DNA of 64,000 nucleotides. It comes from an uncultured Tateyamaria sp. GTDB taxonomy: Bacteria > Pseudomonadota > Alphaproteobacteria > Rhodobacterales > Rhodobacteraceae. The notes below the pieces were generated by a model. That model saw nothing but the letters and a program-made list of their open reading frames with translations. It did no database searches and had not been told where the DNA came from. The translations under genes were made by a program, and so were the position numbers. The stretch spans positions 62,001 through 126,000 of the forward strand of contig CANMVD010000001.1 in the NCBI GenBank assembly GCA_947501275.1, in the 5' to 3' direction. Shown here piece by piece: positions 2,062 to 44,096 of the stretch (its first letter is position 1; each line of letters starts with the position of its first letter).

Positions 2062-2062
2062 C

Positions 2063-26390: not shown

Positions 26391-27653
26391 TTAAACAAAC
26401 GGCAGGTAATAGTTGCGCACCTCGTCGACCGATTTGTCCTTCAGCCGCTTCCACTCATCCTGCTTGAGGAAGATCAGCGCATCACACAACTGCTCCCCCA
26501 CCGCCACACGTAGCGGTTTGTCCGCATCCAAAGCCTCCAGCGCCTTGTCCAGTGCAGACGGCACGTGGCGGGTCGCACGCACATTCTCAAGGCCATCCAG
26601 ATCCTCTGCCGCCCCGGGCTCCAATCCGCCCTCGACCCCCAACAAAGCGGCCTGCAAAACAGCCGTAACGGCAAGGTATGGATTTGTTGCGCAATCCGCC
26701 ATGCGATGCTCCAACCGCGCCGAGCGGGGCGAGGCCACTGACGACCGCGTCGTGACCAGACGGTGATCATCCGCCCAATTCGCCCAATATCCTGCCATCG
26801 ACGCCGGACCCAACCGATCATAGCTGTTAACTGTCATCGCCAGCAAGCCTGCCAGCCCCTCGTGGTGATGGATCAAACCGGCCATGCAACCCTTGGCGAC
26901 GTCCGACAACTGCCCGTCCGGTGCAATCACATTGACCCCTTGGGCATCCTCAAAGCTGAAATTCACATGCAGGCCCGACCCGCCGCGTTCAGGGATCGGC
27001 TTGGGCAGGAAGGTCAGCAGCAGATCCATGTCCGCTGCCACTTCCCGCGCCATCGTTTTGAACAAAAAGGCGTTGTCACAAGCCGCCAATGCATCATCGA
27101 AACGCAAGGTCAGCTCAAACTGGCCGTTGTCATATTCCCCGTTCATGGATTCGATGGGCAATCCGGCCGCCTCCGCCACGGTCCAGATCGCATCCATCAG
27201 ACCTGCCGGGTCATTCTGCGGCCCCGTCCCGTACACAAAAGCACCCGGCGTGTCATAGGGGATCCAAACACCATCACCGTCTTGCTGAAAGACATAGGCC
27301 TCAAGCTCAAGCCCCACTTTCGGGCTCAATCCACGCGCAGCCCACGCTTTTATCGTTGCCTGCAACCGGCCCCGTGCACACAGCCCAAAGGGCGCGCCAT
27401 CGGCGTGCAAGGTGCCTAGCGCGATTTCCGTATCATGCTGCCAGCCTGCATGGCGGGTTTCGTCCAGCACCAGCTCCATATCAGGCAGGCCATCAAACAC
27501 GCCCGCCCCCGGCACCGGGATCAGATCCCGATCAAAGGTCGTGCCAAAGACACCACGGGCAAACCCAATCTTGCCACCGGCAGCCATGTCAGATGGCACA
27601 TATTTCCCGCGCGGCAGGTTCAGAAGATCACAGAAAAGAACACGCGTACGCAT
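26391..27653 (-). CDS. Glutamine-synthetase-family ligase, likely gamma-glutamyl-amide synthetase
   Basis: 420 aa, shorter than GlnA (about 470). Catalytic features of the GS fold are kept: the GLELEAYVF glutamate pair, NGEYDNGQFEL replacing the E-x-x-P-G-Q-x-E motif, GSGLHVNFSF with the substrate His, NSYDRL, and RLEHRMADCATNPYLAVTAV. In this family non-GlnA members (PuuA, GlnA3/4, AtdA1, IpuC) ligate glutamate to amines. Last gene of the leftward operon, 4 bp after a P450 and near a class I amidotransferase. That context points to gamma-glutamylation of an amine substrate. The exact amine is not known. Confidence 0.85.
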   Translation of the reverse strand: MRTRVLFCDLLNLPRGKYVPSDMAAGGKIGFARGVFGTTFDRDLIPVPGAGVFDGLPDMELVLDETRHAGWQHDTEIALGTLHADGAPFGLCARGRLQATIKAWAARGLSPKVGLELEAYVFQQDGDGVWIPYDTPGAFVYGTGPQNDPAGLMDAIWTVAEAAGLPIESMNGEYDNGQFELTLRFDDALAACDNAFLFKTMAREVAADMDLLLTFLPKPIPERGGSGLHVNFSFEDAQGVNVIAPDGQLSDVAKGCMAGLIHHHEGLAGLLAMTVNSYDRLGPASMAGYWANWADDHRLVTTRSSVASPRSARLEHRMADCATNPYLAVTAVLQAALLGVEGGLEPGAAEDLDGLENVRATRHVPSALDKALEALDADKPLRVAVGEQLCDALIFLKQDEWKRLKDKSVDEVRNYYLPFV

Positions 27654-27657
27654 GACA

Positions 27658-28875
27658 TCACCTCAGCGTTGGGCGCAGTGTCAGAGATTTGACACCGCAG
27701 ATAAAATTCGACCGGGTCCATGTAGGCGGCGACGCAACCTCGAGCGCCGCAACCCGTTGCGCCAGTTCCTGTAGCACAGCCGTCAGTTCCAGTTTGGCCA
27801 GCCACATGCCCAGACAGACATGCGGCCCCCCTTGTCCAAAGGCGAGGTGCCGGTTCGGGCTGCGGTCAAGGCGCACCTCATTGGGTGCTTCAAACATCGC
27901 CTCATCCCGGCAACCCGATACAAACCACATCAGCACCTTGTCGCCCTTGCGTATGGTCTGTCCGTGCATTTCGACATCTTGCGTGGCCGTGCGGCGGAAA
28001 TGAAGGGTCGGCGCGGCCAGCCGGATAAACTCATCGGCGCAAGTGTCCCAGACGTCGCCGGCCTGCAATTGCGTCAGCAACGCATTGTCCTGCGCAATCA
28101 ACCACAACGCCATCGCGATGGAATAGCGTGTCGTGTCATTGCCCGCCGCCACCAGCAGGCAAAAGAAATTCTTGAACTCTTGCCCTTGGATCGCACTGTC
28201 CCCGTTCAACACGCGGGCCAGAATACCGTTTTCGTCGACGTGGCGCGCCCCGTCCAAGATCCCTTGGGCATAGTCATAAAGCTCAACCCCCGCAGGCGAG
28301 CGAAACGGCATCATCCGGTAGGCATCCGTGTCGACCTTGTCGAGCACCGTGTCAGTGAAATCGGGATCCGTGTTACCAATCAGCGCGTCCCCCCGCTCGA
28401 CCAGCCAATCTAGGTCAGCGTCAGGCACACCCAAGATCCGCCCCAGCATCAGCATCGGCAGGCGCTTGGCAATCATCTCAACCGCGTCGAATTCGACGTG
28501 CTCCAGCGCCTCGGCCACAATGTCACGGGCCAGTTCCCGGATCAGCGGTTCAAATTGCGCCACCACAGGCTTGGCAAAGACCGGGTTCACTGCACGGCGG
28601 GTACCCGAATGCTCGGGCGGATCGGTTTCCTGAAAGGTGCGGCGGGCAAGGTATTCGTCGCGGCTTTGATCCTCGATCCGAATGCCTTGGGCACTGGAAA
28701 ACACGGTGGGCTGCTTTTGTGCCTCCATGATGTCGGCGTAGCGCGTCAGCGACCAAAACCCCTGCTGACCTGCAAACCCTTCGGTCCAATGCACCGGCGC
28801 CTCCCGACGCATCTGCGCAAACGTCTCATGCGGGACCCCGTCCACAAAGCTGTCATGGTCAGCGAGGTTTTTCAT
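27658..28875 (-). CDS. Cytochrome P450 monooxygenase
   Basis: 405 aa, soluble bacterial class I type. I-helix oxygen site AAGNDT (residues 243-248), E-x-x-R at 282-285 (EFIR), and haem loop FGQGGPHVCLGMWLA with the thiolate Cys354. The remaining sequence resembles the CYP branch that hydroxylates terpenoid or steroid-like compounds; substrate prediction from that is weak. ATG 28875 overlaps the amidotransferase stop (ATGA). No ferredoxin or ferredoxin reductase gene lies in the cluster, so redox partners must be elsewhere. Confidence 0.93.
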   Translation of the reverse strand: MKNLADHDSFVDGVPHETFAQMRREAPVHWTEGFAGQQGFWSLTRYADIMEAQKQPTVFSSAQGIRIEDQSRDEYLARRTFQETDPPEHSGTRRAVNPVFAKPVVAQFEPLIRELARDIVAEALEHVEFDAVEMIAKRLPMLMLGRILGVPDADLDWLVERGDALIGNTDPDFTDTVLDKVDTDAYRMMPFRSPAGVELYDYAQGILDGARHVDENGILARVLNGDSAIQGQEFKNFFCLLVAAGNDTTRYSIAMALWLIAQDNALLTQLQAGDVWDTCADEFIRLAAPTLHFRRTATQDVEMHGQTIRKGDKVLMWFVSGCRDEAMFEAPNEVRLDRSPNRHLAFGQGGPHVCLGMWLAKLELTAVLQELAQRVAALEVASPPTWTRSNFICGVKSLTLRPTLR

Positions 28876-29585
28876 GGCGTGCCTCCAAAAAAACGAGTGG
28901 CCCACTCTGCAAACAGCGCGCCTTGATGGGGGCGGCGGAGGCTGGCCTCGGCATCCGCAATCTCGTCCGCACTCAGGATTGGTTTGGTATAGTCCAACAC
29001 GCAGCGCATGAAGGGATCGGTGAATTCAGGGTGGGCTTGCGTGGTGAAGACATGACTGCCCTTGGAAAACCCAGCGATGTCGCAACGGTGCGAGGCCGCA
29101 TAGGCCATGCATCCCTCGGGCAGCGTGGTCACCGCGTCGTGGTGGAATTGATAAAGCTCAAGTGCCGCTGCATTGGGCCGCATCCACGGCAGTTTCTGCG
29201 TGATCCCGATGTGATCCACACCTATGTTCCAGTCCTGCCGGGCGATTTGACCACCAAGAGCCTGCGCAATGGCCTGATGGCCAAAACACACACCGAGCAG
29301 GGGCTTTTGCGCCACATCACAGCGACGGATAAAATCATGCAACGCAGGCAGGAACGCGAGATCGTCCAGCACACTCAGCGGTGAGCCGGTGATCAGATAG
29401 GCGTCATGGGCGTCTAGGTCAGTTGGCACCTCACCCCCGATGGTCATGTAAACACGGTGGGTAAAGCGTTGATCCTGCGCATCAAACAAATCGCGAAAGC
29501 GGTGGGCATCATCGGGAAAGGCATCGCCAACCTCGATCGAACGATCATGGTTCACCTGCAAAATCCCAAGTTTCAGTCGCGCCAT
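28872..29585 (-). CDS. Class I glutamine amidotransferase-like hydrolase
   Basis: 237 aa. GATase1 triad: nucleophile Cys100 in LLGVCFGHQAIAQALGG, His185 and Glu187 in QAHPEFTDPF. No synthetase domain is fused. Stand-alone members include GMP-synthase-like proteins and the AtdA2/IpuF-type enzymes that cleave gamma-glutamyl amides. Next to a glutamine-synthetase-like ligase and a P450, the second role is the better inference. ATG 29585 is the family start; the frame extends 10 codons upstream. It is preceded by a terminator-like hairpin after tctC. Confidence 0.85.
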   Translation of the reverse strand: MARLKLGILQVNHDRSIEVGDAFPDDAHRFRDLFDAQDQRFTHRVYMTIGGEVPTDLDAHDAYLITGSPLSVLDDLAFLPALHDFIRRCDVAQKPLLGVCFGHQAIAQALGGQIARQDWNIGVDHIGITQKLPWMRPNAAALELYQFHHDAVTTLPEGCMAYAASHRCDIAGFSKGSHVFTTQAHPEFTDPFMRCVLDYTKPILSADEIADAEASLRRPHQGALFAEWATRFFGGTP

Positions 29586-29602
29586 ATTTCTCACCCTGCT
29601 GG

Positions 29603-29628
29603 AAAAGGGCGGCACGCCAGCGCCGCCC
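29603..29628 (-). terminator. Internal terminator or attenuator after tctC
   Basis: Leftward GGGCGGC-GCTGGCGT-GCCGCCC followed by TTTT (stem 29607-29613/29622-29628). Situated between tctC and the amidotransferase gene; it may hold the three enzyme genes below the transporter in expression. Confidence 0.6.
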
Positions 29629-29638
29629 CAAAAAGGCC

Positions 29639-30571
29639 TTAACGGCCCAAGATCTCGTTGATCTCAGCCGATTTGACGCGGTCCGCTTCGATCCGGGCTT
29701 GTGCCTCGGCCTGACCTTGCCAGTACACAGCGGCACCGGTCTCGGCCATCAACGCTTGCGCCTCGTCCGATGCCATGGTCTTGGCAGCGACTTCGGCGAT
29801 GGTGTCGATCACTTCTTGCGGTGTGCCTTTGGTCACAAACAGACCGTTCCACAGCTCGACATCGTTCACGCCGGACTGGGCCGCGATGGTTTCGACACCC
29901 TCCAGCTTGGCAATGGGGTCGGCCCCGATATTGCCCAGCACATTGATGTCACCTAGGCACGGTTCGATCAGCGCCAGCGTCGTGTTAATCACATCCGCAT
30001 CGCCCGAGGACAGCGTGTTGCAATCCAGCAGGTCAAAAGCGCTGTCATCTGCAAATTCAAAGCCCATCTTGGCCGCAGCCGCCATGGACACTGCCGTCGG
30101 CGTCAGGCCCGCACCAAAGTGGCCTAAAACGACGTCGTTCTCTTTGGCGTAATCCGCCAATTCGGCCATGTTGGAGTAGGGCGCATCACCCGAGGCCGCC
30201 AACACAAACGGGTAGGTCAGGAAAATGCCGACGGGGACAAAGCTGTCTTCTTCGATGCCAATGTCAATCTTGGGGCCGACAATCGGCACGCCAATCACGA
30301 ATGACCCGATAACCGAGCCGTCATTGGGGCCATTCAGCACCTCTAGCGCACCGGGAAACGGCCCGTCGCCGCCACCGGGGCGGTTCACAACAGACGCAGG
30401 CTGACCAGTAGCCTCGGCCATGTCGGCGGCGATCATGCGCGTCAGGATGTCTTCGAAATCACCGGGAGGCCACGGCACGATGAACTGCACAGGCCCTGTC
30501 GGGTATTCGGCCATCGCGGAGCCAGCAAGCGCGGCCAAGGCGAAGGCCGCTGATGTCAAAAGCTTTTTCAT
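29639..30571 (-). CDS. tctC: TTT transporter substrate-binding protein (TctC/Bug family)
   Basis: 310 aa. Periplasmic solute receptor with Sec signal (MKKLLTSAAFALAALAGSAM, cleavage after AMA) and the family pattern VQFIVPWPPGDFEDILTRMI, NRPGGGDG and GAGLTPTA near the ligand pocket. Bug receptors bind carboxylates such as citrate, nicotinate or aromatic acids. Third transporter gene in the order tctB-tctA-tctC. A hairpin follows it. The unusual FED after PWPPG replaces the more common GGxxD and could mark an atypical ligand. Confidence 0.92.
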   Translation of the reverse strand: MKKLLTSAAFALAALAGSAMAEYPTGPVQFIVPWPPGDFEDILTRMIAADMAEATGQPASVVNRPGGGDGPFPGALEVLNGPNDGSVIGSFVIGVPIVGPKIDIGIEEDSFVPVGIFLTYPFVLAASGDAPYSNMAELADYAKENDVVLGHFGAGLTPTAVSMAAAAKMGFEFADDSAFDLLDCNTLSSGDADVINTTLALIEPCLGDINVLGNIGADPIAKLEGVETIAAQSGVNDVELWNGLFVTKGTPQEVIDTIAEVAAKTMASDEAQALMAETGAAVYWQGQAEAQARIEADRVKSAEINEILGR

Positions 30572-30604
30572 GTATTCTCTCCCTGAGTTTGGTTGCTTTT
30601 GGTT

Positions 30605-32095
30605 TTAGTGTTCGAACCTCTTCGTGCGGAGGCTTGTGTAGATCGTGAAGGCGACAACCATCACGATGACGATAAAAAGAGTGCCCGAAACCGGGCGGTT
30701 GACCAGATCAAAGACGGTTTTGATTTGCCCGGCTCCTGCGGTGAGCTTTTCGATCATGATCGATCCAAGGACGAGGCCCAGCACAATGGGCACAAGCGGC
30801 CAGTCAAGGCGTCGCAACACATAGCCCAGAAACCCGAAACCGGCGGCAAACATGCAATCCGGAAACGAATTGCGGATCGAAAAGACGCCGACAAAGGCGA
30901 GGATCAGGATAAACGCACCCAGCAAGCGGTTAGGGATGTAGATGATCTTGGCAATCCACCGCGTGGATACCAGTAACGTCAGTACCACCAGCACGTTGAT
31001 GATCAGCAGCGCGATAAACAGCGAAAACAGGAAGTCTGAATTGTTCTCGAAAATGTCTGGCCCCGGCTTGATGCCTGCGTCAAAGAAAACAACCATCATC
31101 ATGGCTGTCAGCGCCTCACCCGGCACGCCAAGGGCCAGCAGCGGCACCATGGCCGCCGCGGGCACCGCGTTGTTCGACGCCTCGGACGCGATCAACCCAT
31201 CCGGTGCGCCGCGTCCAAACTTGCCCGGATCTTTCGACAGCGCGCGCGCGGTCGAGTAGCTGAAGAACTGCGCCACAAACTCGCCCACGCCGGGGATAAT
31301 CCCCATGATCGTCCCGTATCCCGCCGAAATCGTCACCACCAAAGGGTGCTGTTTCAACTCGCCAAACCCGCGCAGCAATCCACCCTTGAGCCGCGCCTCG
31401 GGTGGATCTGCGTCCTTGCCCGTCAGCAAATACAGGGCTTGGGAAATCGCAAAGATCCCCACGATCACGACGATGAGGTTGAAGCCGGGATAGAGATATT
31501 CGACATCAAACGTATAGCGGTCGATCTGTTTCAGCGACTGCCGCCCAATCAGCGCAATCAGGAACCCCACGCCAAACAGCAGCGTCGCAATCCCCATGGA
31601 CTGCCGATGCGCCGCAATCAGCAATACGGCCCCTAGGGCGGCAGCCATAAAGATGTCGCGCTGCCCGAACAGCGCTCCAAGGTCACGCAAAAACGGTCCA
31701 AACAACATCAGCGCGCCGAGACCCAGAAGGATCGAAAAACACCCACCGAAAAAGGACGCCGCATAGGCCAGCGATAACCCGCGCGCCGCCTCTCCCCGCC
31801 GCGTCATCGCATAGCCATCATAGGTGGTCAGCGCGTTCACAGGCGTTCCGGGCGTGTTGATCAGGATGGCCGGGATCGCCCCGCCATACATCGACGACCC
31901 ATAGACCCCAAGCAGCAGCACAAGGCTGACCAGATCATCCAGAAACACAGTGGCAGGCAGCAGGATCGCGATGGCAATGGCCGGTCCAATTCCCGGCACC
32001 GCTCCGATGGCCAGCCCTCCGACCGACCCGATCAGAATGGCGACCATGACGGGCCAGCTTGCTAAGTTTTCCAGCCCTGCCCAAAACGCGTCCAT
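30605..32095 (-). CDS. tctA: TTT transporter large membrane subunit (TctA)
   Basis: 496 aa, about 11-12 hydrophobic helices. Family motifs: AIGAVPGIGPAIAIAILLPA, YGSSMYGGAIPAILINTPGT and the second repeat IIPGVGEFVAQFFSYSTARA. Carries carboxylated substrates together with TctB and the binding protein TctC. It begins 3 bp after tctB and is followed by tctC after 33 bp. Location inside the operon with aminotransferase and oxygenase genes suggests it imports the regulon's substrate. Confidence 0.95.
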   Translation of the reverse strand: MDAFWAGLENLASWPVMVAILIGSVGGLAIGAVPGIGPAIAIAILLPATVFLDDLVSLVLLLGVYGSSMYGGAIPAILINTPGTPVNALTTYDGYAMTRRGEAARGLSLAYAASFFGGCFSILLGLGALMLFGPFLRDLGALFGQRDIFMAAALGAVLLIAAHRQSMGIATLLFGVGFLIALIGRQSLKQIDRYTFDVEYLYPGFNLIVVIVGIFAISQALYLLTGKDADPPEARLKGGLLRGFGELKQHPLVVTISAGYGTIMGIIPGVGEFVAQFFSYSTARALSKDPGKFGRGAPDGLIASEASNNAVPAAAMVPLLALGVPGEALTAMMMVVFFDAGIKPGPDIFENNSDFLFSLFIALLIINVLVVLTLLVSTRWIAKIIYIPNRLLGAFILILAFVGVFSIRNSFPDCMFAAGFGFLGYVLRRLDWPLVPIVLGLVLGSIMIEKLTAGAGQIKTVFDLVNRPVSGTLFIVIVMVVAFTIYTSLRTKRFEH

Positions 32096-32098
32096 CGC

Positions 32099-32839
32099 TC
32101 AGAACCACACCTGCATGAAAGTTTCCAGGGATTGCGGCAGTTGATCATAAAGCCAAATGTTCACGGGCGTGCGGATTTGCAGGCCTGTGCGAAAGATCAG
32201 CACGATGGTGAAACTCGCCGCCAGACAGATCCCCATCCAGCGCAGCCCCCGATATCCCAACCGCCACGGCAACGCTGTGCCCAGCAATAGCGTGGCCACC
32301 AGATAGCCAAGCACCGGCACCAGCAGCGTATAGGCAATGAACCAGCCCACATATTCCAGCGCGCGGCCCCATTGACCGAGCTCATATGCCACCGCATTGG
32401 GCAAACCGAAACGCGCGCGCCAGCGCACAGACCGCAGCGATCCACGCAGGTTCCAAATGGCCGCAGGTACGAGGATCACGAGACAAGCCATCGGCGCGAT
32501 CCAGCTTTGTTTCAGGATCCGGCCCAAACGCGCGGGGCGTTTATCCGGGTCAGTTATGCCAAACTGATCCATCCAGTAACGCGCCATATTGGCAGGCAGT
32601 TTACGGTCTTCCCACCCCGTCTGGGTAAAAAAGAACACAAGGAAAAACAGCGCCACAGCGACCATGAACACCGAAAACACCAAATCCCCCCGGCCCCGGC
32701 GAAAGTTCGTCACATCCCGCAGATCAAAACGCTTGTCGGGCACGCACATACTTGCAAATGCAGGCCCTACCGTACGCGAACGCATTTGCGTTGACGCAAC
32801 AGCACTCTCGAGCGCAGGGGAGGTCGTGGTGCTTTTCAC
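32099..32839 (-). CDS. tctB: TTT transporter small membrane subunit (TctB)
   Basis: 246 aa, longer than most TctB (about 150-180). An N-terminal cytosolic segment of about 50 residues is followed by four hydrophobic helices (about 52-72, 112-130, 160-190, 195-215). An unusual soluble loop TGWEDRKLPANMARYWMDQF lies between helix 1 and 2. Starts with GTG overlapping the aminotransferase stop (GTGA). The position immediately upstream of tctA supports the call even though the sequence is only weakly TctB-like. Confidence 0.8.
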   Translation of the reverse strand: MKSTTTSPALESAVASTQMRSRTVGPAFASMCVPDKRFDLRDVTNFRRGRGDLVFSVFMVAVALFFLVFFFTQTGWEDRKLPANMARYWMDQFGITDPDKRPARLGRILKQSWIAPMACLVILVPAAIWNLRGSLRSVRWRARFGLPNAVAYELGQWGRALEYVGWFIAYTLLVPVLGYLVATLLLGTALPWRLGYRGLRWMGICLAASFTIVLIFRTGLQIRTPVNIWLYDQLPQSLETFMQVWF

Positions 32840-34197
32840 GCCTGCGCCATCATCGCTTTCAGGCCGGTTTCGGTCGCCGCCAGGATTTTTTGCACGTGGT
32901 TTTCGTCCACCACCAAGGGCGGTGAGAAGATCGCGTTGTTGCCGGACACGCGGATCATCACACCATCTTCATAAGCGGCCTTTTGGAAAGCCACGGGCAA
33001 CGTCTTGCCCACAGGGGTCTTCTTGGCCTGATCGCTGACCAATTCGATGGCGCACATAAGGCCCTCGCCGCGCACATCACCTATTATGTCATAGCGTGTG
33101 GCCAGCGCCTCAAGCCCCGCCTTCAGTTCCGCCCCGCGCGGGGCTGCGTTTTCCCAAGGGCGGATGCGCATGGTCTCTTCCACCGCTGCCACGGCCGCCG
33201 CCGCGCCAACCGGGTGGCCAGAATAGGTATAGCCGCTGTCCACGGATCCGGCGCCGCTGTCGTCATCTTCAAACACGGCTGCGACCTTGTCAGCGATCAT
33301 CACAGCCCCAAACGGAAAATATCCATTGGTGATCGCCTTGGCGGTACACATCAGATCGGGCTGCACAGCCCAATGGCGCGATCCGGTTTCAGTGCCGGTG
33401 CGGCCAAAGGCGGTAATGACCTCATCCGCAATCAGCAGCACACCGTGTTTGTCACAGATATCGCGCACCATCGGCATGAATGACGGATGGGGCGGAATAA
33501 CTCCGCCCGCCCCCTGCACAGGCTCCATCACAAAGGCGGCCACCGTGTTGGCCCCCTGAAAGGCGATCTCGCGCTCCAGCATCCCGGCACTCAGATGGGC
33601 CAATTCCTCGGCACTCTCGGTGCCAAAGGGATTGCGATAAAGATACGGCCCCGGAATGTGAAAGCATCCTGCCATCAATGGTTCGTAGGTGTTGCGAAAC
33701 TTGGCGTTGCCGTTGACCGACGCACCACCAAAATGGGTACCATGATAACCTTTGTCGAGGCTGATGAACTTGGTTCGCGCAGCGTCGCCACGGATGCGGT
33801 GATATTGACGGGCGAGTTTCAAGGCAATCTCGATGGAGTCCGAGCCGCCCGAGGTAAAGAAACTGCGCGACATGCCATCCGGTCCAAAGAACTCGGCCAG
33901 CAAAAAGGCCAGCTCAATCGCCTTGTCGTTGCTGGTGCCTCGAAACGTCGAATAATACGGAAGCGCCTCTAGCTGGTTCGCAATCGCCGCCTTCACCGGG
34001 GCACAGGAATAACCAAGGTTCACGTTCCACAACCCGCCCACCGCATCAATGCTACGGTGTCCATCCACATCCGTGATGTAAACGCCCTCCCCCCCGGTCA
34101 GGATGGTGGGCGGGTTGGCCATGCTGTCGGCAGGATGAGCCATGGGATGCCAAAACTGGCGGGCATTGTTTTCCTTGAGGAAATTGCTGTCCTTCAT
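32836..34197 (-). CDS. Class III aminotransferase (omega-transaminase type)
   Basis: 453 aa. PLP fold type I: GLWNVNLGYSCAPVKAAIAN at the N-terminus, GSDSIEIALKLARQYHRIRG, the Asp in LIADEVITAFGRTG and the PLP Lys in CTAKAITNGYFPFGAVMI. Members convert primary amines or beta/omega-amino acids to aldehydes or oxo acids with pyruvate or similar acceptors. It lies between the IclR gene (ATGA overlap) and tctB (GTGA overlap). In this regulon a natural job is amine-to-aldehyde conversion before aldehyde oxidation. Substrate unproven. Confidence 0.92.
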   Translation of the reverse strand: MKDSNFLKENNARQFWHPMAHPADSMANPPTILTGGEGVYITDVDGHRSIDAVGGLWNVNLGYSCAPVKAAIANQLEALPYYSTFRGTSNDKAIELAFLLAEFFGPDGMSRSFFTSGGSDSIEIALKLARQYHRIRGDAARTKFISLDKGYHGTHFGGASVNGNAKFRNTYEPLMAGCFHIPGPYLYRNPFGTESAEELAHLSAGMLEREIAFQGANTVAAFVMEPVQGAGGVIPPHPSFMPMVRDICDKHGVLLIADEVITAFGRTGTETGSRHWAVQPDLMCTAKAITNGYFPFGAVMIADKVAAVFEDDDSGAGSVDSGYTYSGHPVGAAAAVAAVEETMRIRPWENAAPRGAELKAGLEALATRYDIIGDVRGEGLMCAIELVSDQAKKTPVGKTLPVAFQKAAYEDGVMIRVSGNNAIFSPPLVVDENHVQKILAATETGLKAMMAQA

Positions 34198-34994
34198 GAC
34201 GCGGCCCTTTCATGGCTCGGTGTCCAGATCTGTTCAACCTCGGGCGGTACATTGCCCCCCATGGCTTCGGTGATGTCACGACCTGCCGTCATCAGCAGGG
34301 TTGCCAGTTCCTGTTCACGTGCAGGTCCGCCCCTGCTCGAAGGAAAGGCGATGGAACACGTGGCAAACGGGCGCGAGGCGCTATCAAAAACCGGAATTGC
34401 GACCGAAGAGACCCCAAGGCGCAACGTGTCGCGATTGCTGGCATGACCGCGCTGTGCAATCAGCGCCAACTCATTCGCAATGGTTTCGCGATCCGGACGG
34501 GAGCTTCCAGCCTGATAGGTGCGCGAGTCATCCAAAGCCATGTCGAGCATCGCAGCGGTCGAAAACGCCAGATACGCCTTGCCAGACGCAGTGGCGAACA
34601 GAGGGGGCAAACCATAGGCGTCAAAGCTGACACGCACTGGGTGGTCGTGATGCTCTGCGTGATAGACATCGACAAGATCAAACCGCTGTAAGCGCGAGAT
34701 GTGCACCAACTCCCCCGCCCTTCGGCTCAGCGCATCAATGACGCTGCGCACCATCTCGACCTCGGGCACTGTTCGGGCGCGCATTCCGGCAAGACGTGTC
34801 AGCGCAGGCCCCAGACGATAGGCACGTGTGTCCGTGTCCTGCTCGAGATATCCCACATTTTCAAGCGCACTCAGGTGGCGATGTACCGTTGCCTTGTCCC
34901 GCCCCGTGAGGCGTTGCACATCCGACAAACCAAGACGCGGTTGCGCTTCGGTGAACAGATCCAACAGGGACAACGCTTTTGAAATCGTCGACAT
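34194..34994 (-). CDS. IclR-family transcriptional regulator of the divergon
   Basis: 266 aa. N-terminal wHTH MSTISKALSLLDLFTEAQPR, LSDVQRLTGRDKATVHRHLS; C-terminal IclR effector domain with LAFSTAAMLD and SVAIPVFDSASRPFATCSIA. It heads the leftward operon and is divergent from hpaE. A perfect palindrome (35048-35064) lies in the 99-bp gap. IclR proteins next to aromatic-catabolic genes usually bind a pathway acid, for example hydroxyphenylacetate or homoprotocatechuate; the ligand here is inferred only. ATG 34994 is chosen; six codons upstream there is another ATG. Confidence 0.93.
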   Translation of the reverse strand: MSTISKALSLLDLFTEAQPRLGLSDVQRLTGRDKATVHRHLSALENVGYLEQDTDTRAYRLGPALTRLAGMRARTVPEVEMVRSVIDALSRRAGELVHISRLQRFDLVDVYHAEHHDHPVRVSFDAYGLPPLFATASGKAYLAFSTAAMLDMALDDSRTYQAGSSRPDRETIANELALIAQRGHASNRDTLRLGVSSVAIPVFDSASRPFATCSIAFPSSRGGPAREQELATLLMTAGRDITEAMGGNVPPEVEQIWTPSHERAAS

Positions 34995-35047
34995 GGTTTC
35001 AGCTTGACGCAACGCAAACTCCCTTGCAATATATTTTTGCGTCTAAC

Positions 35048-35064
35048 GGTTCATTATATGAACC
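35048..35064. promoter_or_regulatory. Perfect palindromic operator candidate for the IclR protein
   Basis: GGTTCAT-TAT-ATGAACC: 7-bp perfect arms around TAT, in the gap between iclR (34994) and hpaE (35094). It is the only long perfect palindrome there and has the size expected of IclR sites. It would sit near the hpaE promoter. Confidence 0.7.
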
Positions 35065-35093
35065 AATGCTGGAAATTCAGGCAGGAGCCACCG

Positions 35094-36605
35094 ATGTCAG
35101 ATCTGGACTCGAACCTCGCGAAATTGGCCCCACATCTGGCACGCATCGGCGAAACGGGCGTTTTGAATCATATCGGCGGACAGGCGCAGCCTGCGCAAAA
35201 CGGCGCGTGGTTCGATACAACCTCCCCTGTGGATGATAGCCACATCGCGCGCGTCGCCCGTAGCGATGCACGCGACATTGACGCTGCCGCCCAAGCGGCC
35301 AAAGCCGCCTTTCCCGCGTGGCGTGACACGGCCGCTGCCGAGCGCAAACGGATCCTGCACGCCATCGCTGACGGGATCGAATCCCGCGCCGAAGAGATTG
35401 CCCTATGCGAATGCTGGGACACGGGCCAAGCCCTGCGCTTCATGTCCAAGGCCGCCCTGCGCGGGGCCGCCAACTTTCGCTTTTTTGCCGACCGGGCGCC
35501 GTCTGCACGCGACGGGCAATCCCTGCCATCGCCGACACTGATGAACATCACCACCCGCGTGCCCATCGGCCCGGTGGGCGTGATCACCCCTTGGAATACA
35601 CCTTTCATGCTGTCGACCTGGAAGATTGCACCGGCGCTCGCAGCCGGTTGCACCGTTGTTCACAAACCTGCTGAACTCAGCCCATGGACTGCGCGCATTC
35701 TGCTCGACATCGCAGAAGAGGCTGGTCTACCACCGGGTGTCTGGAACCTCGTCAACGGCATGGGCGAAGATGCAGGGCGCGCACTCACCGAACACCCCGA
35801 CATCCGCGCCATCGCTTTTGTCGGCGAAAGCAAAACCGGCTCTGCAATCATGGCCCAAGGATCGGCCACGCTGAAACGGGTGCATTTTGAACTGGGCGGC
35901 AAGAACCCGGTTGTAGTCTTCGATGATGCCGATCTGGACAACGCACTCGATGCAGCGATCTTCATGATCTACTCGCTTAACGGCGAGCGCTGTACGTCGT
36001 CTTCCCGGCTGCTGGTCCAAGACACCATTGCCAACGATTTCGAGGAAAAACTCGCCGCCCGCGCCAAAGCGATCAAAGTCGGTCACCCGTTGGACCCAAA
36101 GACAGAAGTCGGCCCTCTTATCCACGAGGTCCACCGCACCAAAGTCATGGCCAGCTTTGACACCGCAACATCCGAAGGCGCTACAATCGCCGCAGGCGGC
36201 ACACGCGTCGGCGACATCGGGCAATTCGTGGCACCCACACTCTTCACCCACGCCACGAATGACATGAAAATCGCGCAGGATGAAATCTTCGGTCCCGTTC
36301 TCACCTCGATAAGGTTCAAAACCGAAGACGAGGCCCTGAGCATCGCAAATGACACCGCCTACGGGCTTACCGGCTATGTCTGGACGTCCGATGTCACTCG
36401 CGCGATGCGGTTCACCGAAAAGCTCGAAGCAGGGATGATCTGGGTCAACTCTGCCAATGTACGACACCTGCCGACACCCTTTGGCGGCGTCAAAGCCAGT
36501 GGCATAGGCCGCGATGGAGGTGACTGGTCGTTTGAATTCTACATGGAGCAAAAACACATCGGTTTTGCCACAGGAGACCCCAAAATCCCCAAACTTGGAG
36601 CCTAA
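35094..36605 (+). CDS. hpaE: 5-carboxymethyl-2-hydroxymuconate semialdehyde dehydrogenase-like
   Basis: 503 aa. Aldehyde dehydrogenase: NAD-site GPVGVITPWNTPFMLSTWKI, VHKPAELSP, catalytic Glu in FELGGKNPVVVF, nucleophile Cys in NGERCTSSSRLLV, and RHLPTPFGGVKASGIGRDGG. The length and FELGGKNP with NGERCTSSSRLLV are those of HpaE, which oxidises the ring-cleavage semialdehyde of homoprotocatechuate. ATG 35094 follows a GGCAGGAG site; the open frame extends to 35004. First gene of the rightward operon, ahead of the extradiol dioxygenase. Confidence 0.88.
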   Translation: MSDLDSNLAKLAPHLARIGETGVLNHIGGQAQPAQNGAWFDTTSPVDDSHIARVARSDARDIDAAAQAAKAAFPAWRDTAAAERKRILHAIADGIESRAEEIALCECWDTGQALRFMSKAALRGAANFRFFADRAPSARDGQSLPSPTLMNITTRVPIGPVGVITPWNTPFMLSTWKIAPALAAGCTVVHKPAELSPWTARILLDIAEEAGLPPGVWNLVNGMGEDAGRALTEHPDIRAIAFVGESKTGSAIMAQGSATLKRVHFELGGKNPVVVFDDADLDNALDAAIFMIYSLNGERCTSSSRLLVQDTIANDFEEKLAARAKAIKVGHPLDPKTEVGPLIHEVHRTKVMASFDTATSEGATIAAGGTRVGDIGQFVAPTLFTHATNDMKIAQDEIFGPVLTSIRFKTEDEALSIANDTAYGLTGYVWTSDVTRAMRFTEKLEAGMIWVNSANVRHLPTPFGGVKASGIGRDGGDWSFEFYMEQKHIGFATGDPKIPKLGA

Positions 36606-36711
36606 GGGGGAGTTGGTACTTCATCCTTGGCATCCTGCATTCCTGTTCGCGTGCCGCGAAATACAACAGAAAGCACGATACGATCTAAACCAAAGTCCAA
36701 GCGCCTCAGAT

Positions 36712-36800
36712 TTCTTCTGACCATAAATACCATCGGGGAGTTTGAGGGGCGGAAAGCCCCTCAAATCAAAAGTTAAATCGCGTGCGGCGCCAGCCGCCCA
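36712..36800 (+). repeat. Dispersed intergenic repeat family 1, copy C
   Basis: TTCTTCTGACCATAAATACC, ATCGGGGAGTTT, hairpin GAGGGGC-GGAAA-GCCCCTC, then GTGCGGCGCCAGCCGCCC. Inserted between hpaE and the dioxygenase gene, thus inside a presumed operon (36606-36818 carries no gene). Confidence 0.75.
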
Positions 36801-36818
36801 TTTTGAAAAGAGACCACC

Positions 36819-37799
36819 ATGCCCGTCCCACCGCCCGTGCTCTACCCGCCCTTCAACATCGTGCGGCTCAGCCATGTGGAATACCGGGTGACGGATCTGG
36901 CCGCCTCACGGCACTTCTATGTCGATACGCTCGGGCTGCAGGTCACGCATGAGGACGCAGACACAATCTATCTGCGCGCCATGGAAGAACGCGGCCACCA
37001 CTGCGTTATCCTGCGCGAAAGCCAAGCCCCTGATGTCTCACGGCTCGGGTTCAAGCTGTACGACCACCCTGATCTCGACAAAGCCGCCGCATGGTTTGAC
37101 AGTCAAAACCTGCCCACCACTTGGATTGAACGCCCCTTCATGGGCCGCGTTTTGCAAACTCAGGACCCATGGGGTGTGCCGCTGGAATTCTACGTCCAGA
37201 TGGACCGTCTGCCGACAATTGCGCAGAAATACGCGCTCTACAAAGGGGTCAAACCGCTGCGGATCGACCACTTTAACCTGTTCTCTTCAGACGTGGACGG
37301 GGCGGTTGCCTTCTACACCCAAATGGGGTTCCGGACGACGGAATATACCGAGGACGCAGAGACAGGAAAGTCATGGGCCGCATGGATGCACCGCAAAGGC
37401 GGCGTTCATGACATCGCCTTCACCAATGGCGTTGGGCCACGCCTGCACCACTCCGCCTTCTGGGTGCCGACCCCGCTCAACATCATCGACCTGCTCGATC
37501 TGATGAGCACGACAGGTTACCGCGACAACATCGAACGCGGGCCCGGTCGGCACGGCATCTCCAACGCATTTTTTCTCTACGTGCGCGACCCCGACGGCCA
37601 CCGGACCGAGATCTACTGCTCGGACTACCAAACCGTCGATCCCGACCACGAACCAATCAAATGGGACCTCAAGGATCCCTCGCGCCAAACGCTCTGGGGC
37701 GCGCCTGCCCCGCGCAGCTGGTTCGAGGAAGGCAGTGTATTTGACGGGGTTGCAACACTCGAACCTCTTCTCAAGGCACAGCCGATCGTGGCACCCTAG
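36819..37799 (+). CDS. hpaD: Homoprotocatechuate 2,3-dioxygenase, VOC extradiol type
   Basis: 326 aa. Two vicinal-oxygen-chelate modules, as in the Brevibacterium and Arthrobacter homoprotocatechuate dioxygenases. The likely Fe/Mn ligands are His151 (LRIDHFNLF), His210 or 211 (PRLHHSAFW) and Glu264 (HRTEIYCSDY). His197 in GGVHDIAF occupies the place of the acid-base His of that family. Cleaves 3,4-dihydroxyphenylacetate next to the diol. The unrelated LigB-type HpaD of E. coli does the same reaction. Located between hpaE and the decarboxylase, 19 bp after repeat copy C. Confidence 0.88.
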   Translation: MPVPPPVLYPPFNIVRLSHVEYRVTDLAASRHFYVDTLGLQVTHEDADTIYLRAMEERGHHCVILRESQAPDVSRLGFKLYDHPDLDKAAAWFDSQNLPTTWIERPFMGRVLQTQDPWGVPLEFYVQMDRLPTIAQKYALYKGVKPLRIDHFNLFSSDVDGAVAFYTQMGFRTTEYTEDAETGKSWAAWMHRKGGVHDIAFTNGVGPRLHHSAFWVPTPLNIIDLLDLMSTTGYRDNIERGPGRHGISNAFFLYVRDPDGHRTEIYCSDYQTVDPDHEPIKWDLKDPSRQTLWGAPAPRSWFEEGSVFDGVATLEPLLKAQPIVAP

Positions 37800-37871
37800 A
37801 CCCGACAAGACGTACCTTGAGTGCCGCCCCCGTAAGGCCCACATGTTATGTGGCCCGCCGAAAGGACCAAG

Positions 37872-39269
37872 ATGAGCTGGGATGATTTCGCCAAACACGC
37901 CCGTGACGCCGCAGATTGGGGGGCAAACTACCACAAAACCATCCGCGACCGCCCCGTGCGCGCACAAACCGCGCCCGGCGACATCGCCGCCCAACTCGCC
38001 CCAAGCCCGCCCGAGGACGGCACCGACCTAGGCGCGATCATGGCCGATTTCGAACGCATCGTGATGCCCGGGATCACCCATTGGCAGCACCCGCGCTTCT
38101 TTGCCTATTTCAACTCCAACGCCGCACCTGCCTCCGTGCTGGCCGAATTCCTGACCTCGATCATCGCCCCGCAATGCATGTTGTGGCAGACCTCGCCCGC
38201 CGCCACCGAGATGGAAACCAAGATGCTCGACTGGCTGCGGCAAGGGCTGGGCCTGCCAGACGGCTACCAAGGTGTGATCCAAGACAGTGCATCATCAGCC
38301 ACACTGGCGGCGGTGCTCAACATGCGAGAACGCGCGCTGAACTTTCGTGGCAATATCGAAGGGCTGCACGGCCAGCCCACCTTGCGCATCTACTGCTCGG
38401 ATCAGGTGCATTCGTCCATCGACCGCGCCATCTGGATCGCCGGAATCGGGTCCGACAATCTGGTCAAGATCCGCACCACCGGAGACCTGCGCGCCATGGA
38501 CCCGCTCGACCTTGAGGCCGCAATTGCCGAGGACAAATTGGCCGGACGCGTTCCCGCAGGCATCATCGCAGCCACGGGGGCCACCGGCATGGGCGCGTGC
38601 GATGACCTGCAAGCGGTCGCCGCCGTTGCAAAAGAACACAACCTTTACACTCATCTCGACGCCGCATGGGCCGGCACAGCCATGATCTGCCCCGAATTCC
38701 GCACCCTTTGGGCGGGGGCCGAACAGTTCGACAGCATTGTCTTCAACCCGCACAAATGGCTCGGCGCGCAATTCGACTGTGCCGCGCACTTCCTGCGTGA
38801 TCCGGACGTGCTGCGCCAAACCCTCGCCATCCGCCCCGAATACCTCAAGACCCACGGAGCCGAGGACATCATCGACTATTCCGAATGGTCAATCCCGCTG
38901 GGCCGCCGTTTTCGCGCACTGAAACTCTGGTTCCTGATGCGACATTACGGAATGGAGGGGCTGCGCGTGCGAATCCGCAACCACGTTATGTGGTCGCAAG
39001 CCTTGTGCGAACGGCTGCGCGCAGAACCTGAGATCGAGGTTGTGACCAACCCGATCCTGTCGCTCTGGACGTTCAAGGTTGCAGGGACTTCGGATGACGA
39101 CACCCAAGCCCTCGTGGACCGGATCAACGATGACGGGCGCATTTACCTTACCCAAACCAACGTAGATGGCACCAAGGTCATCCGCTTTCAGGCCGGTCAA
39201 TTTGACTGTGAACAGCGTGACTTTGACGTGGCCTTTGACACCATTTTGGAGCTTGCGAGGGCCACATGA
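37872..39269 (+). CDS. PLP-dependent aromatic L-amino acid decarboxylase
   Basis: 465 aa, group II decarboxylase. GITHWQHPRFFAYFNSNAAP at residue 67 on, the PLP-stacking His180 in IYCSDQVHSSIDRA, Asp263 in HLDAAWAGTA and Schiff-base Lys295 in FNPHKWLGAQFDC. The sequence is closest in style to DOPA/tyrosine/tryptophan decarboxylases. It makes tyramine, dopamine or a related amine. ATG 37872 with an AAAGGA site. It lies inside the homoprotocatechuate operon and its stop overlaps the next start (ATGA), tying amine formation to ring cleavage. Confidence 0.9.
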   Translation: MSWDDFAKHARDAADWGANYHKTIRDRPVRAQTAPGDIAAQLAPSPPEDGTDLGAIMADFERIVMPGITHWQHPRFFAYFNSNAAPASVLAEFLTSIIAPQCMLWQTSPAATEMETKMLDWLRQGLGLPDGYQGVIQDSASSATLAAVLNMRERALNFRGNIEGLHGQPTLRIYCSDQVHSSIDRAIWIAGIGSDNLVKIRTTGDLRAMDPLDLEAAIAEDKLAGRVPAGIIAATGATGMGACDDLQAVAAVAKEHNLYTHLDAAWAGTAMICPEFRTLWAGAEQFDSIVFNPHKWLGAQFDCAAHFLRDPDVLRQTLAIRPEYLKTHGAEDIIDYSEWSIPLGRRFRALKLWFLMRHYGMEGLRVRIRNHVMWSQALCERLRAEPEIEVVTNPILSLWTFKVAGTSDDDTQALVDRINDDGRIYLTQTNVDGTKVIRFQAGQFDCEQRDFDVAFDTILELARAT

Positions 39270-40117
39270 AATTCGCCACCTACACAACCCAAGGGGACAC
39301 CTATTACGGCGCAGTGGCCGAAGGCGGCATGATCCCGCTCTCGCCCAACTTCCCCAACTGGCCCACTCTGCGTGAGGTCATCGAAAACGACGGCCTGCAC
39401 GCGCTGGCCCGAGCCGCCGCAGGGCGCAGCGCCACGCACACCGATGTCACCTACCAAATCCCCGTGCCCAACCCCGAAAAAATCATTTGCGTCGGCGTTA
39501 ACTTCCCCGACCGCAATGCGGAATACAAAGACGGGCAGGACGCGCCGCCGAACATGTCCCTCTTCCCGCGTTTTCCACGCAGTTTCACGGGCCATGCGCA
39601 GCCCATCATTCGCCCGCCAGAAAGCGAGAAACTCGACTATGAGGGCGAGATCGCGATTGTTATCGGCAAAGCCGGGCGACGCATCGTCGAGGCCGACGCC
39701 TATGACCACATCGCGGCCCTAACGCTCTGCAACGAGGGCACAATTCGCGACTGGGTCCGACACGCCAAATTCAATGTCACCCAAGGCAAAAACTGGGACA
39801 ATTCCGGCGCCATGGGTCCGTGGCTCGTGCCTTTCACCCACGGCGCTCAACTCGACGACATCCGCCTCACCACCCACGTGAACGGGGAGTTGCGCCAAGA
39901 CGACCGCACCTCGCGCATGTTGTTCCCCATCCGCCGTCAGATCGCTTACATCTCGACTTTCACCACACTTGTCCCCGGAGACATCATCGTCACAGGCACG
40001 CCCACAGGCGCAGGGGCGCGGTTCGATCCGCCCAAATTCCTGATGCCCGGTGACGTGGTCGAAGTAGCGGCTGAGGGCATCGGCACCCTGCGCTCCGAGG
40101 TGGCAGATGACACCTGA
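39266..40117 (+). CDS. hpaG: Fumarylacetoacetate hydrolase-family protein, HpaG-like
   Basis: 283 aa. FAH fold: EKIICVGVNFPDRNAEYKDG, metal-binding LDYEGEIAIVIGKAGRRIVE, QGKNWDNSGAMGPWLVP and VPGDIIVTGTPTGAGARF. In the homoprotocatechuate pathway HpaG decarboxylates 5-oxo-pent-3-ene-1,2,5-tricarboxylate and/or isomerises the product. Only one FAH domain is present (E. coli HpaG has two) and no HpaF isomerase gene follows. Start overlaps the decarboxylase stop (ATGA); 11-bp overlap with hpaH. Confidence 0.85.
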   Translation: MKFATYTTQGDTYYGAVAEGGMIPLSPNFPNWPTLREVIENDGLHALARAAAGRSATHTDVTYQIPVPNPEKIICVGVNFPDRNAEYKDGQDAPPNMSLFPRFPRSFTGHAQPIIRPPESEKLDYEGEIAIVIGKAGRRIVEADAYDHIAALTLCNEGTIRDWVRHAKFNVTQGKNWDNSGAMGPWLVPFTHGAQLDDIRLTTHVNGELRQDDRTSRMLFPIRRQIAYISTFTTLVPGDIIVTGTPTGAGARFDPPKFLMPGDVVEVAAEGIGTLRSEVADDT

Positions 40118-40901
40118 ACAGCACAAAAACGCAGCCGCTGCCCTGCTGCAGGCCGAACGCACCCGCACCCAGATTGGCGTATTGTCGGTGGCCTACCCCG
40201 ATATCACCATGGACGACGCCTATGCGATCCAGACTCAATTCGTGGACGCCAAAGTCGCTGCCGGAGATCCGGTGGTTGGCTGGAAAATCGGGCTGACCAG
40301 CCGAGCCATGCAAATGGCGCTGAACATCGACATTCCCGACAGCGGGGTGCTGACGCGCTCAATGCAGTTTGACACAGGCGCGACAATCCCCGCCGGACAT
40401 TTCATCGAACCAAGGATTGAGGCCGAGATCGCTTTTGTGATGAAATCCGATATCGGCGGCGCGGATGTGACGCGCGACGATGTGCTTGCCGCCACCGGTT
40501 ATGTCGCCCCGGCGCTGGAAATCCTCGACACCCGCATCCTGCGCACCGACCCCACCACAGGCCAAGCGCGCAAGGTCTTTGACACGATCTCTGACAACGC
40601 CGCCAATGCGGGGATCGTGATGGGGCTCGAACGGCACAAGCCCGAAAACCTCCGCTGGGTCGGGGCCATCGTCAGGGTCGGCGAAACGGTTGAGGAAACT
40701 GGCCTTGGCGCGGGTGTACTAAATGATCCGGTTGAAAGCCTGGTCTGGCTGGCGCAGCGCATGGCGCTTTATGGCAATCGGATCAAAGCGGGGCAGGTTA
40801 TCCTGTCCGGCAGCTTTATCCGACCCATCGAATGCCCAGCAGGCACGCAGATTGACGCAGATTTTGGGTCCTTCGGATCGGTTGCGCTGAACTTTGCCTA
40901 A
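40107..40901 (+). CDS. hpaH: 2-oxo-hept-3-ene-1,7-dioate hydratase-like
   Basis: 264 aa. Hydratase/decarboxylase family (MhpD/HpaH): TMDDAYAIQTQFVDAKVAAG, VVGWKIGLTSRAMQMALNID, MQFDTG and EPRIEAEIAFVM with the Mg ligand, and LGAGVLNDPVESLVWLAQRM. Hydrates the linear oxo-acid before aldol cleavage. Last gene of the rightward operon; the aldolase HpaI is missing from the window. Overlaps hpaG by 11 bp, and its stop overlaps the convergent glucokinase stop by 4 bp. Confidence 0.88.
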   Translation: MTPEQHKNAAAALLQAERTRTQIGVLSVAYPDITMDDAYAIQTQFVDAKVAAGDPVVGWKIGLTSRAMQMALNIDIPDSGVLTRSMQFDTGATIPAGHFIEPRIEAEIAFVMKSDIGGADVTRDDVLAATGYVAPALEILDTRILRTDPTTGQARKVFDTISDNAANAGIVMGLERHKPENLRWVGAIVRVGETVEETGLGAGVLNDPVESLVWLAQRMALYGNRIKAGQVILSGSFIRPIECPAGTQIDADFGSFGSVALNFA

Positions 40902-41845
40902 ACGTCCGCTTGCCGTGCGCGCGCCAACAAGCGCGCCGTGCACCCACCCAATGCAACCGTGTCGGACACAAACAGGAATGCGGGAATGCGGGCAAACTGC
41001 CCATCAAAGCTGGCATCGTCGCGCAACGGCTTCAGAACGTTTTCGCGCCGCTCTGGCGCCAGCAGAAACTTGGCCAGTGACCCGTTGAAGTAAAGGCCCG
41101 CGCGCGGGAAATACGCGTAGGCCAATTCACGCACCATCAACGAAAACGCTTCTGCACAGGTCTCCATCGCCTCCCGGGCGCGGGGATCATCACTTTTGGC
41201 CAGTGCCTCGGCGGTGTCGACGTCAACGCCAATGACCTGGGCCAGACGCACCAGACCAACGCCGGAAAACAGGTTCTCCACAGTCTCAAAACGCGACGTG
41301 TCGGGCAAATGAGCGCGCAACACGGCCATCACGCTGACCGGAAGGCTTGCGTGGCCTTGCTCGGCAGTGAAGACCACACCGCTTTCCATATCCACGGCCG
41401 AGACGTTGAACCCGGTGCCAAGGCCAACCACCAGCGCCTGACCAGAGCGGCCCAGACGGGCACCCTCGTGCAAGGGTTCAACTGCATCTGCGGCAACGGT
41501 TGGCACCGCCTGACCCAAAGCCTCAAGGTCGTTCATCAACGTGACTTCACATGCGCCAAGCTGCATGGCCAATGCATCGGCGTCAAAATCCCAGTTGCGG
41601 TTGGTCAGACGGGCATGACGGCCCGCCACCGGTCCGGCCACGGCAATGACGACAAGATCAGGACAGGTGCGACCCGCCAGATAGGTGCGCACCAGATCCA
41701 GAAACCCGCCATGGGATGCATTGCGCTGGCTGACGACGGTGTCCCCCAGAACCCCGTCGCGCCCAACAAAGGCAAGGCGGGTATTCGTCCCGCCTACATC
41801 AGCCACAAGGCCGATAGCCCCGTCCTGTGCCGTCCCACCGTCCAT
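40898..41845 (-). CDS. glk: Glucokinase
   Basis: 315 aa. Cytosolic, phosphorylates glucose with ATP to glucose-6-phosphate. Phosphate-1 motif LVADVGGTNTRLAFVG, sugar contacts LTNRNWDFDADALA and MNDLEALGQA, ATP motif VVGLGTGFNVSAV and QGHASLPVS. It is the non-ROK Glk type. Its ATG overlaps the stop of the sugar ABC ATPase gene (TAATG), so it is the last gene of the transporter operon. That linkage suggests the imported sugar is glucose, or that glucose is one substrate. Confidence 0.9.
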   Translation of the reverse strand: MDGGTAQDGAIGLVADVGGTNTRLAFVGRDGVLGDTVVSQRNASHGGFLDLVRTYLAGRTCPDLVVIAVAGPVAGRHARLTNRNWDFDADALAMQLGACEVTLMNDLEALGQAVPTVAADAVEPLHEGARLGRSGQALVVGLGTGFNVSAVDMESGVVFTAEQGHASLPVSVMAVLRAHLPDTSRFETVENLFSGVGLVRLAQVIGVDVDTAEALAKSDDPRAREAMETCAEAFSLMVRELAYAYFPRAGLYFNGSLAKFLLAPERRENVLKPLRDDASFDGQFARIPAFLFVSDTVALGGCTARLLARARQADV

Positions 41846-43952: not shown

Positions 43953-44045
43953 CTTGGTGTCCCGGATACAGGGCGGCTGTGACCACACGAGCATGTCCCG
44001 AGCGGTGCGCGCACGCAGATGATGTCATGGAAAAAGGGTGGATAC

Positions 44046-44077: not shown

Positions 44078-44096
44078 AGAAGGGTGAAACCCTGTC

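Follow-up and report, generated by a model that had tools for sequence, protein, structure and literature searches.

A divergent Tateyamaria gene cluster combining a glutamine synthetase-like ligase, a cytochrome P450 and an amidotransferase with homoprotocatechuate cleavage genes

Gene content and layout of the cluster

In the 64,000-bp stretch of DNA analysed here (the window), from an uncultured Tateyamaria sp., two gene arms diverge from a common control region between positions 26391 and 40901. A preliminary description, made from the sequence alone, had placed 13 divergent genes here and interpreted them as a regulon in which an aromatic amine is decarboxylated, gamma-glutamylated, oxidised, released, transaminated and cleaved as 3,4-dihydroxyphenylacetate. 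Open frames for all 13 genes lie at the places it had given, and profile searches matched them to the families it had named. The left arm contains eight genes, from an IclR-type regulator to a glutamine synthetase (GS)-like ligase, and the right arm contains five, from hpaE to hpaH. The features are as follows, with the evidence for each in brackets.

26391..27653, minus strand: GS-like ligase, proposed gamma-glutamyl-arylalkylamide synthetase (PF00120, 246 bits)
27658..28875, minus strand: cytochrome P450, proposed gamma-glutamyl amide oxidase (PF00067)
28872..29585, minus strand: class I glutamine amidotransferase-like protein (GATase), proposed gamma-glutamyl amide hydrolase (PF00117)
29639..30571, minus strand: TctC solute-binding protein (PF03401)
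30605..32095, minus strand: TctA large membrane subunit (PF01970)
32099..32839, minus strand: TctB small membrane subunit (by position; PF07331, 26.1 bits, under the Pfam cut-off of 29.1)
32836..34197, minus strand: class III aminotransferase, proposed for the amine-to-aldehyde step (PF00202; NF005683 above cut-off)
34194..34994, minus strand: IclR-type regulator (PF09339 and PF01614)
34995..35093: divergent control region of 99 bp, common to both arms
35094..36605, plus strand: hpaE, 5-carboxymethyl-2-hydroxymuconate semialdehyde dehydrogenase (TIGR02299, 758 bits, cut-off 638)
36819..37799, plus strand: hpaD, VOC-type 3,4-dihydroxyphenylacetate 2,3-dioxygenase (TIGR02295, 407 bits, cut-off 321)
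37848..39269, start possibly 37872, plus strand: aromatic L-amino acid decarboxylase, Pyridoxal_deC family (PF00282)
39266..40117, plus strand: hpaG-like isomerase/decarboxylase, FAH family (PF01557)
40107..40901, plus strand: hpaH, 2-oxo-hept-4-ene-1,7-dioate hydratase (TIGR02312, 358 bits, cut-off 351.5)

For the P450 and GATase genes, internal ATG starts were preferred over the longer GTG starts of the open reading frame (ORF) list. HpaE, HpaD and HpaH passed the NCBIfam equivalog cut-offs, which assigns them to homoprotocatechuate meta-cleavage, and the HpaG-like protein scored 162.9 bits against the HpaG C-terminal model, below its cut-off of 276.4. HpaF and HpaI were not found within the window. 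The earlier statement that almost all starts and stops overlap was too strong: three of the seven left-arm junctions overlap, by 4 bp each, and the other four are spaced by 3, 4, 33 and 53 bp. In the right arm, 213 bp separate hpaE from hpaD.

A palindrome in the shared control region

The distance between the ATG codons of the IclR gene and hpaE is exactly 99 bp (34995-35093), as first reported. The perfect palindrome proposed as the IclR operator is also present, GGTTCATTATATGAACC at 35048..35064, with 7-bp arms (GGTTCAT-TAT-ATGAACC). Since 67 of 2000 shuffles of the 99-bp region reached an arm of at least 7 bp, the palindrome would not stand out much by itself; what gives it weight is its conservation in Tateyamaria regions and its being the sole match in the genome. 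GGTTCA-N5-TGAACC was kept in eight of nine Tateyamaria IclR-hpaE regions, the region of locus L068 having one mismatch, and one Tateyamaria region showed a compensating pair change. The same pattern was found upstream of IclR at four (L081, L106, L112, L116) of 16 other loci with listed palindromes whose arms reach 7 bp or more. It has a single match in the 4.6-Mb genome, and the backward control gave none. These observations support the prediction of one local operator for both arms. In addition, TTGACG-17-CAATAT at 35004-35032, with both hexamer regions in conserved columns of the Tateyamaria alignment, may be read as the right-arm promoter.

Features of the encoded enzymes

Alignment of the GS-like protein with E. 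coli GlnA showed V in place of Y179 and M in place of E327, with E129, E131, E212, E220, H269, R321, R339, E357 and R359 all kept (GlnA numbering). D50 of GlnA aligns to A, in a gapped loop where the alignment is uncertain. We take Y179 and E327 (and D50) to be ammonium-site residues and the kept residues to form the metal and glutamate sites. At the positions of Y179 and E327, IpuC has T and W and PuuA has V and Y. With its ammonium-site residues replaced and its metal and glutamate residues kept, the window GS-like protein has the pattern of a glutamyl organic amide synthetase. In excerpts of one study, replaced ammonium-site residues explain why such GS-like enzymes use no ammonium (PMC11335346). 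In the GS tree, 22 rows, the window protein among them, form a clade (96/99) that does not include IpuC, PuuA or GlnA. An ordinary glutamine synthetase is unlikely, given the lost ammonium-site residues and a GlnA elsewhere in the same genome (L001), which is 62% identical to that of E. coli.

The nearest PDB chains of the P450 are of the CYP125, CYP126 and CYP124 types. Motifs AGNDTT and EFIR are present, and the heme loop AFGQGGPHVCLG was read from the translation; it has one residue too many for the pattern used to search for it, which therefore gave no match. Motifs GVCFGHQ and AHPE are present in the GATase, whose top PDB match is gamma-glutamyl peptidase 1. Omega-transaminases are among the top PDB matches of the aminotransferase, and DOPA (3,4-dihydroxyphenylalanine) and tyrosine decarboxylases are those of the decarboxylase (E 1e-105). 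The decarboxylase fits the aromatic L-amino acid decarboxylases in fold, lysine motif and loop tyrosine, the last being kept in the alignment. The loop tyrosine is presumably the catalytic one of decarboxylases, and its presence speaks against an aldehyde synthase.

The GS-like/P450/GATase unit in other genomes

Two sets of genomes were compared. The family set contained 120 Rhodobacteraceae genomes, one per genus, of which 25, including the genome of the window, had the GS-like gene at E≤1e-80. The second set contained the best 80 of 546 GS relatives from the genome collection, from which records very close to the window may have been left out. Both sets overlap at three loci (L038/L106, L039/L081 and L041/L113). 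The 57 loci with at least 60% identity to the window GS are called window-like below. Among the best 80 of 546, the nearest relatives belong to Tateyamaria, with 85-89% identity in the ten top loci (L061-L070), and the tree pairs the window GS with that of T. omphalii, a species with a type strain that carries the cluster (L064).

In the family set, a P450 of 55-72% identity was found at 22 of the 24 other GS loci, the two misses being L042, where the contig ends beside GS, and L048. A P450 match was present at 75 loci of the second set and missing from L077, L099, L102, L105 and L107. The P450 gene lies directly upstream of GS on the same strand at 49 of 55 window-like loci with enough upstream DNA, and GATase, P450 and GS are contiguous on one strand at 44 of the 48 with at least 2.5 kb upstream. 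The GS-like ligase, the P450 and the amidotransferase are a conserved unit. GS and P450 distances were correlated in a Mantel-type test (r 0.87 over 99 rows and 0.82 over 56; reached by 0 of 2000 permutations), which adds little support, as common descent by itself produces such a correlation and three loci are counted twice. Relatives often carry a [2Fe-2S] ferredoxin gene by GS (12 of 23 family loci with gene calls); similarity to the relatives' ferredoxin revealed no dedicated ferredoxin for the P450 in the 64-kb window.

Two further features were seen around these loci. Upstream of TctB at L099 (Pseudooctadecabacter; 72-6128), three ORFs resemble by eye a terminase, a primase/helicase and an integrase, which suggests a possible phage-like neighbour of the cluster. 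A UPF0261 (Tm-1-like) protein is encoded by the GS, Tct and aldehyde dehydrogenase genes at 15 loci of the second set, e.g. L106:1713-2942.

Linkage to homoprotocatechuate genes and absence of HpaB

Conserved synteny of the trio with hpa genes had been named beforehand as a check, and this linkage recurs in other genomes. Of the 31 window-like loci with full flanks, 21 have at least one of hpaE, D, G and H within 10 kb; when Tateyamaria is excluded, the count is 12 of 21. Loci in related genomes rule out a linkage unique to the genome of the window. Across the 120 genomes, HpaD was found in 20/25 genomes with GS and 15/95 without (p=2.7e-9) and the decarboxylase in 22/25 and 32/95 (p=1.7e-6), p-values that overstate independence as the genomes share ancestry. 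GS and HpaD are on different contigs or far apart in some of the co-occurring genomes, so that their co-occurrence is not a matter of linkage alone. Among 385 genomes of the class Alphaproteobacteria, GS was found in five of seven with HpaD over the cut-off and in 4 of the 378 others; this search scored the first few candidates per genome, and two of the five genomes with both belong to one genus.

A related P450 gene also adjoins a GS-like gene in Novosphingobium sp. EMRT-2 and Streptomyces canus, with genes nearby for a LigB-type dioxygenase (matched by no NCBIfam model other than HpaD_Fe) and for HpaE-like and HpaG-like proteins. The compound cleaved may differ in these organisms. The P450 from Streptomyces clusters with those of the trio (91/98, in a tree with a long-branch warning), and the GS from Streptomyces falls outside the group of trio GS proteins.

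These distributions also bear on the idea that two independent operons merely diverge from one regulator and share no common pathway. Such a chance neighbourhood would agree with the separate positions of the two arms in many genomes; we consider it very improbable, as the palindrome in the shared region is conserved and is a single site in the genome, GS and HpaD co-occur even where unlinked, and GS with P450 stands beside hpa-like genes in Novosphingobium and Streptomyces.

HpaB was not found in the genome of the window with TIGR02309 and PF11794. In the family set, HpaB was over the cut-off in 12/120 genomes, in 5/35 genomes with HpaD and in 2/20 with both GS and HpaD.

At 31 further hpaD loci, the decarboxylase gene is inside the hpa operon in 12. 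A second, LigB-type 3,4-dihydroxyphenylacetate dioxygenase stands beside the VOC-type HpaD at 11 of 31 hpaD loci; the one scanned (L168:10828-11706) passes the HpaD_Fe cut-off. Genes for a DUF2783 protein, an FAD (flavin adenine dinucleotide) monooxygenase and an MBL-fold protein recur beside those for the decarboxylase and HpaI (L047:16088-18995), and this module, near some loci, is a candidate alternative ring hydroxylase. In the window, hpaH is end to end with a glucokinase-like gene, a sugar ABC transporter and a divergent regulator (40898-46514), which resemble an ordinary sugar operon.

Comparison with known systems

The closest functional parallel is the Ipu system. According to excerpts of its description, isopropylamine is first joined to glutamate by IpuC and then hydroxylated in this tagged form by a P450 system, and its release is postulated to be the work of an amidotransferase (PMC6776027). 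As in those excerpts and in the pTC1 gene set, gamma-glutamylation, P450 oxidation and amidotransferase release would follow in the same order here, and the GS-like ligase, P450 and amidotransferase are likewise encoded together. At the sequence level, however, the window GS is only 29% and the P450 31% identical to the pTC1 proteins, and the GATase has no BLASTP match to pTC10065 at 1e-3 and a partial match to pTC10062. IpuC of pTC1 groups with PuuA and with L003, a GS-like paralogue in the genome of the window, whereas the window GS is placed elsewhere; the window P450 is placed apart from that of Ipu, in the tree with a long-branch warning. The Ipu P450 has a dedicated ferredoxin and reductase, no ferredoxin similar to that of the relatives being found in the window, and the window trio differs further in its link with genes for aromatic decarboxylation and ring cleavage. 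L003 itself, with 37% identity to IpuC of pTC1, may represent a separate amine route.

In aniline and 1-naphthylamine degradation (AtdA1/TdnQ/NpaA1), a GS-like enzyme with replaced ammonium residues also forms a gamma-glutamyl aromatic amide, as excerpts of PMC11335346 describe. By description, a Rieske dioxygenase, accompanied by a GATase, acts there on an aryl amine, in contrast to the P450 of the window, whose substrate probably carries its amine on the side chain. The PuuABCD putrescine pathway shares a GS-like ligase, an aldehyde dehydrogenase and a gamma-glutamyl hydrolase, but has an amine oxidase, no P450 and no ring cleavage, and PuuD gave no BLASTP match to the window GATase at 1e-3. 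The hpa pathway shares HpaE, HpaD and HpaH; the window differs in the absence of HpaB from its genome and in the decarboxylase inside the operon. The cluster is best placed among the N-glutamylation routes as a variant, one that would work like Ipu with a GS that by sequence is not IpuC.

Proposed pathway and alternatives

We propose a gamma-glutamylation, P450 and hydrolysis route feeding homoprotocatechuate, with a probability of about 0.65. The most likely order is decarboxylation, glutamylation, oxidation, release, transamination and cleavage, as in the preliminary description. The decarboxylase would form an arylethylamine, e.g. tyramine from tyrosine, which the GS-like ligase would join to glutamate as a gamma-glutamyl amide. 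With electrons from a ferredoxin, the P450 would oxidise the tagged amine, most likely by 3-hydroxylation of gamma-glutamyl-tyramine to gamma-glutamyl-dopamine, a ring step that would replace HpaBC, which otherwise acts on 4-hydroxyphenylacetate. Ring hydroxylation of gamma-glutamyl-tyramine in particular is a tentative assignment, which we place somewhat short of an even chance. The GATase-like hydrolase would take off glutamate to give dopamine. Transamination by the class III enzyme would then yield the aldehyde, an aldehyde dehydrogenase would turn this into 3,4-dihydroxyphenylacetate, and the Hpa enzymes (D, E, G and H of the window together with HpaF and HpaI) would carry the latter into central metabolism. 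The IclR protein is predicted to repress or activate both arms from the single palindrome. The parts missing from the window (ferredoxin, aldehyde dehydrogenase, HpaF and HpaI) are found in the clusters of relatives, so that window and relatives together would supply every step from tyrosine to 3,4-dihydroxyphenylacetate cleavage. Gene content, conserved linkage, co-occurrence, the lost ammonium-site residues, the missing HpaB and the conserved palindrome can be read directly from the sequences, and each substrate, the oxidised position, the order of steps and the role of TctABC are our inference. As a whole, the best explanation is a regulon catabolising an aromatic amine from tyrosine or a close analogue, for which we would give even odds.

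Several observations weigh against this proposal. No hpa gene was found within 10 kb at 10 of the 31 window-like loci with full flanks, and 5 of the 25 GS-positive genomes have no HpaD. The ring-cleavage proteins of Novosphingobium and Streptomyces are below the HpaD_Fe, HpaE and HpaG cut-offs. TctC proteins usually bind carboxylates and would be a poor fit for a free amine. The trio itself is broken at some loci: L048 has GS and GATase with no P450 between them, TctC is followed directly by GS at L102 and L107, and at L107 the genes that come after GS encode HpaF, HpaE, HpaD and HpaG, without a P450. A P450 orthologue was missing at E≤1e-60 from four of seven genomes checked (L077, L102, L105 and L107), all four being metagenome-assembled genomes of unstated completeness; the L099 genome has the P450 elsewhere, beside a GATase-like gene, and the L074 and L083 genomes also have it. 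At L105, an agmatinase-family gene (850-1968, TIGR01230 over cut-off) between TctC and GS replaces GATase and P450, perhaps a sign that a different amine is used in that lineage. HpaB is missing as well from 12 of the 15 HpaD genomes without GS, which indicates that the hpa pathway often runs without either. Such pathways may receive DOPA or dopamine, which need no ring hydroxylation, or may use other hydroxylating enzymes.

The agmatinase-family gene of L105, standing in for GATase and P450 beside GS, would suit a polyamine or aliphatic amine route of the PuuA/PuuC kind, made up of the GS-like ligase, TctABC, aminotransferase, aldehyde dehydrogenase and UPF0261 protein, with the hpa genes as neighbours sharing a regulator. 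The 30% identity of the window GS to PuuA points the same way, as does the recurrent aldehyde dehydrogenase at L106, whose best NCBIfam model is PuuC (513 of 850 bits, below cut-off). Nevertheless, this route appears improbable: the window GS is outside the PuuA/IpuC branch, the same genome has closer PuuA-like and IpuC-like paralogues (35-37%), the co-occurrence of GS with HpaD holds genome-wide, and the agmatinase gene is strong only in L105 and weaker in L054 and L071.

A different role for the P450 within the glutamylation route was also considered. The enzyme could O-demethylate a methoxylated amine of the 3-methoxytyramine type, or oxidise the benzylic or alpha-carbon, DOPA or dopamine supplying the catechol; in the latter variant the C-N bond would be cleaved to give an aldehyde and glutamine. 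A catechol amine is perhaps the normal input, given that 11 of the 15 HpaD genomes without GS have the decarboxylase and 12, as said above, have no HpaB, and the P450 of the Ipu excerpts hydroxylates a side-chain carbon. Yet the GS-P450 unit tracks HpaD and not HpaB, and a second ring hydroxylase was not found in the window cluster, although an FAD monooxygenase, not searched for in this genome, could hydroxylate the ring. We regard these roles as rather unlikely.

Significance

The interpretation in the preliminary description holds in part, supported by the trio-hpa linkage, the co-occurrence of GS with HpaD and decarboxylase, the operator-like palindrome, the lost ammonium-site residues and the Ipu precedent. 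Its statement that no single known pathway uses all of these genes fits the findings, and each part has a precedent. Among search listings of open-licence PMC literature, no description of a catabolic route through gamma-glutamyl tyramine or dopamine was found. Tagging is known for isopropylamine and aniline, and its use for a tyrosine-derived amine looks new.

HpaD without HpaB is common in the family (30 of 35 HpaD genomes), which puts in question the source of the catechol there. Action of the P450 on the glutamate-tagged amine, instead of HpaBC on the free acid, is conceivable as the main route from tyrosine to homoprotocatechuate in marine Alphaproteobacteria, with the tagged catecholamine itself perhaps undergoing ring cleavage in sphingomonads and Streptomyces; we hold this broader view to be rather doubtful. 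If the proposed route is true, testable names would be gained for three gene families whose present annotations go no further than glutamine synthetase family protein, cytochrome P450 and type 1 glutamine amidotransferase. N-glutamylation would then be a general way of presenting small amines to oxygenases, extending from isopropylamine and aniline to the biogenic aromatic amines in seawater bacteria.

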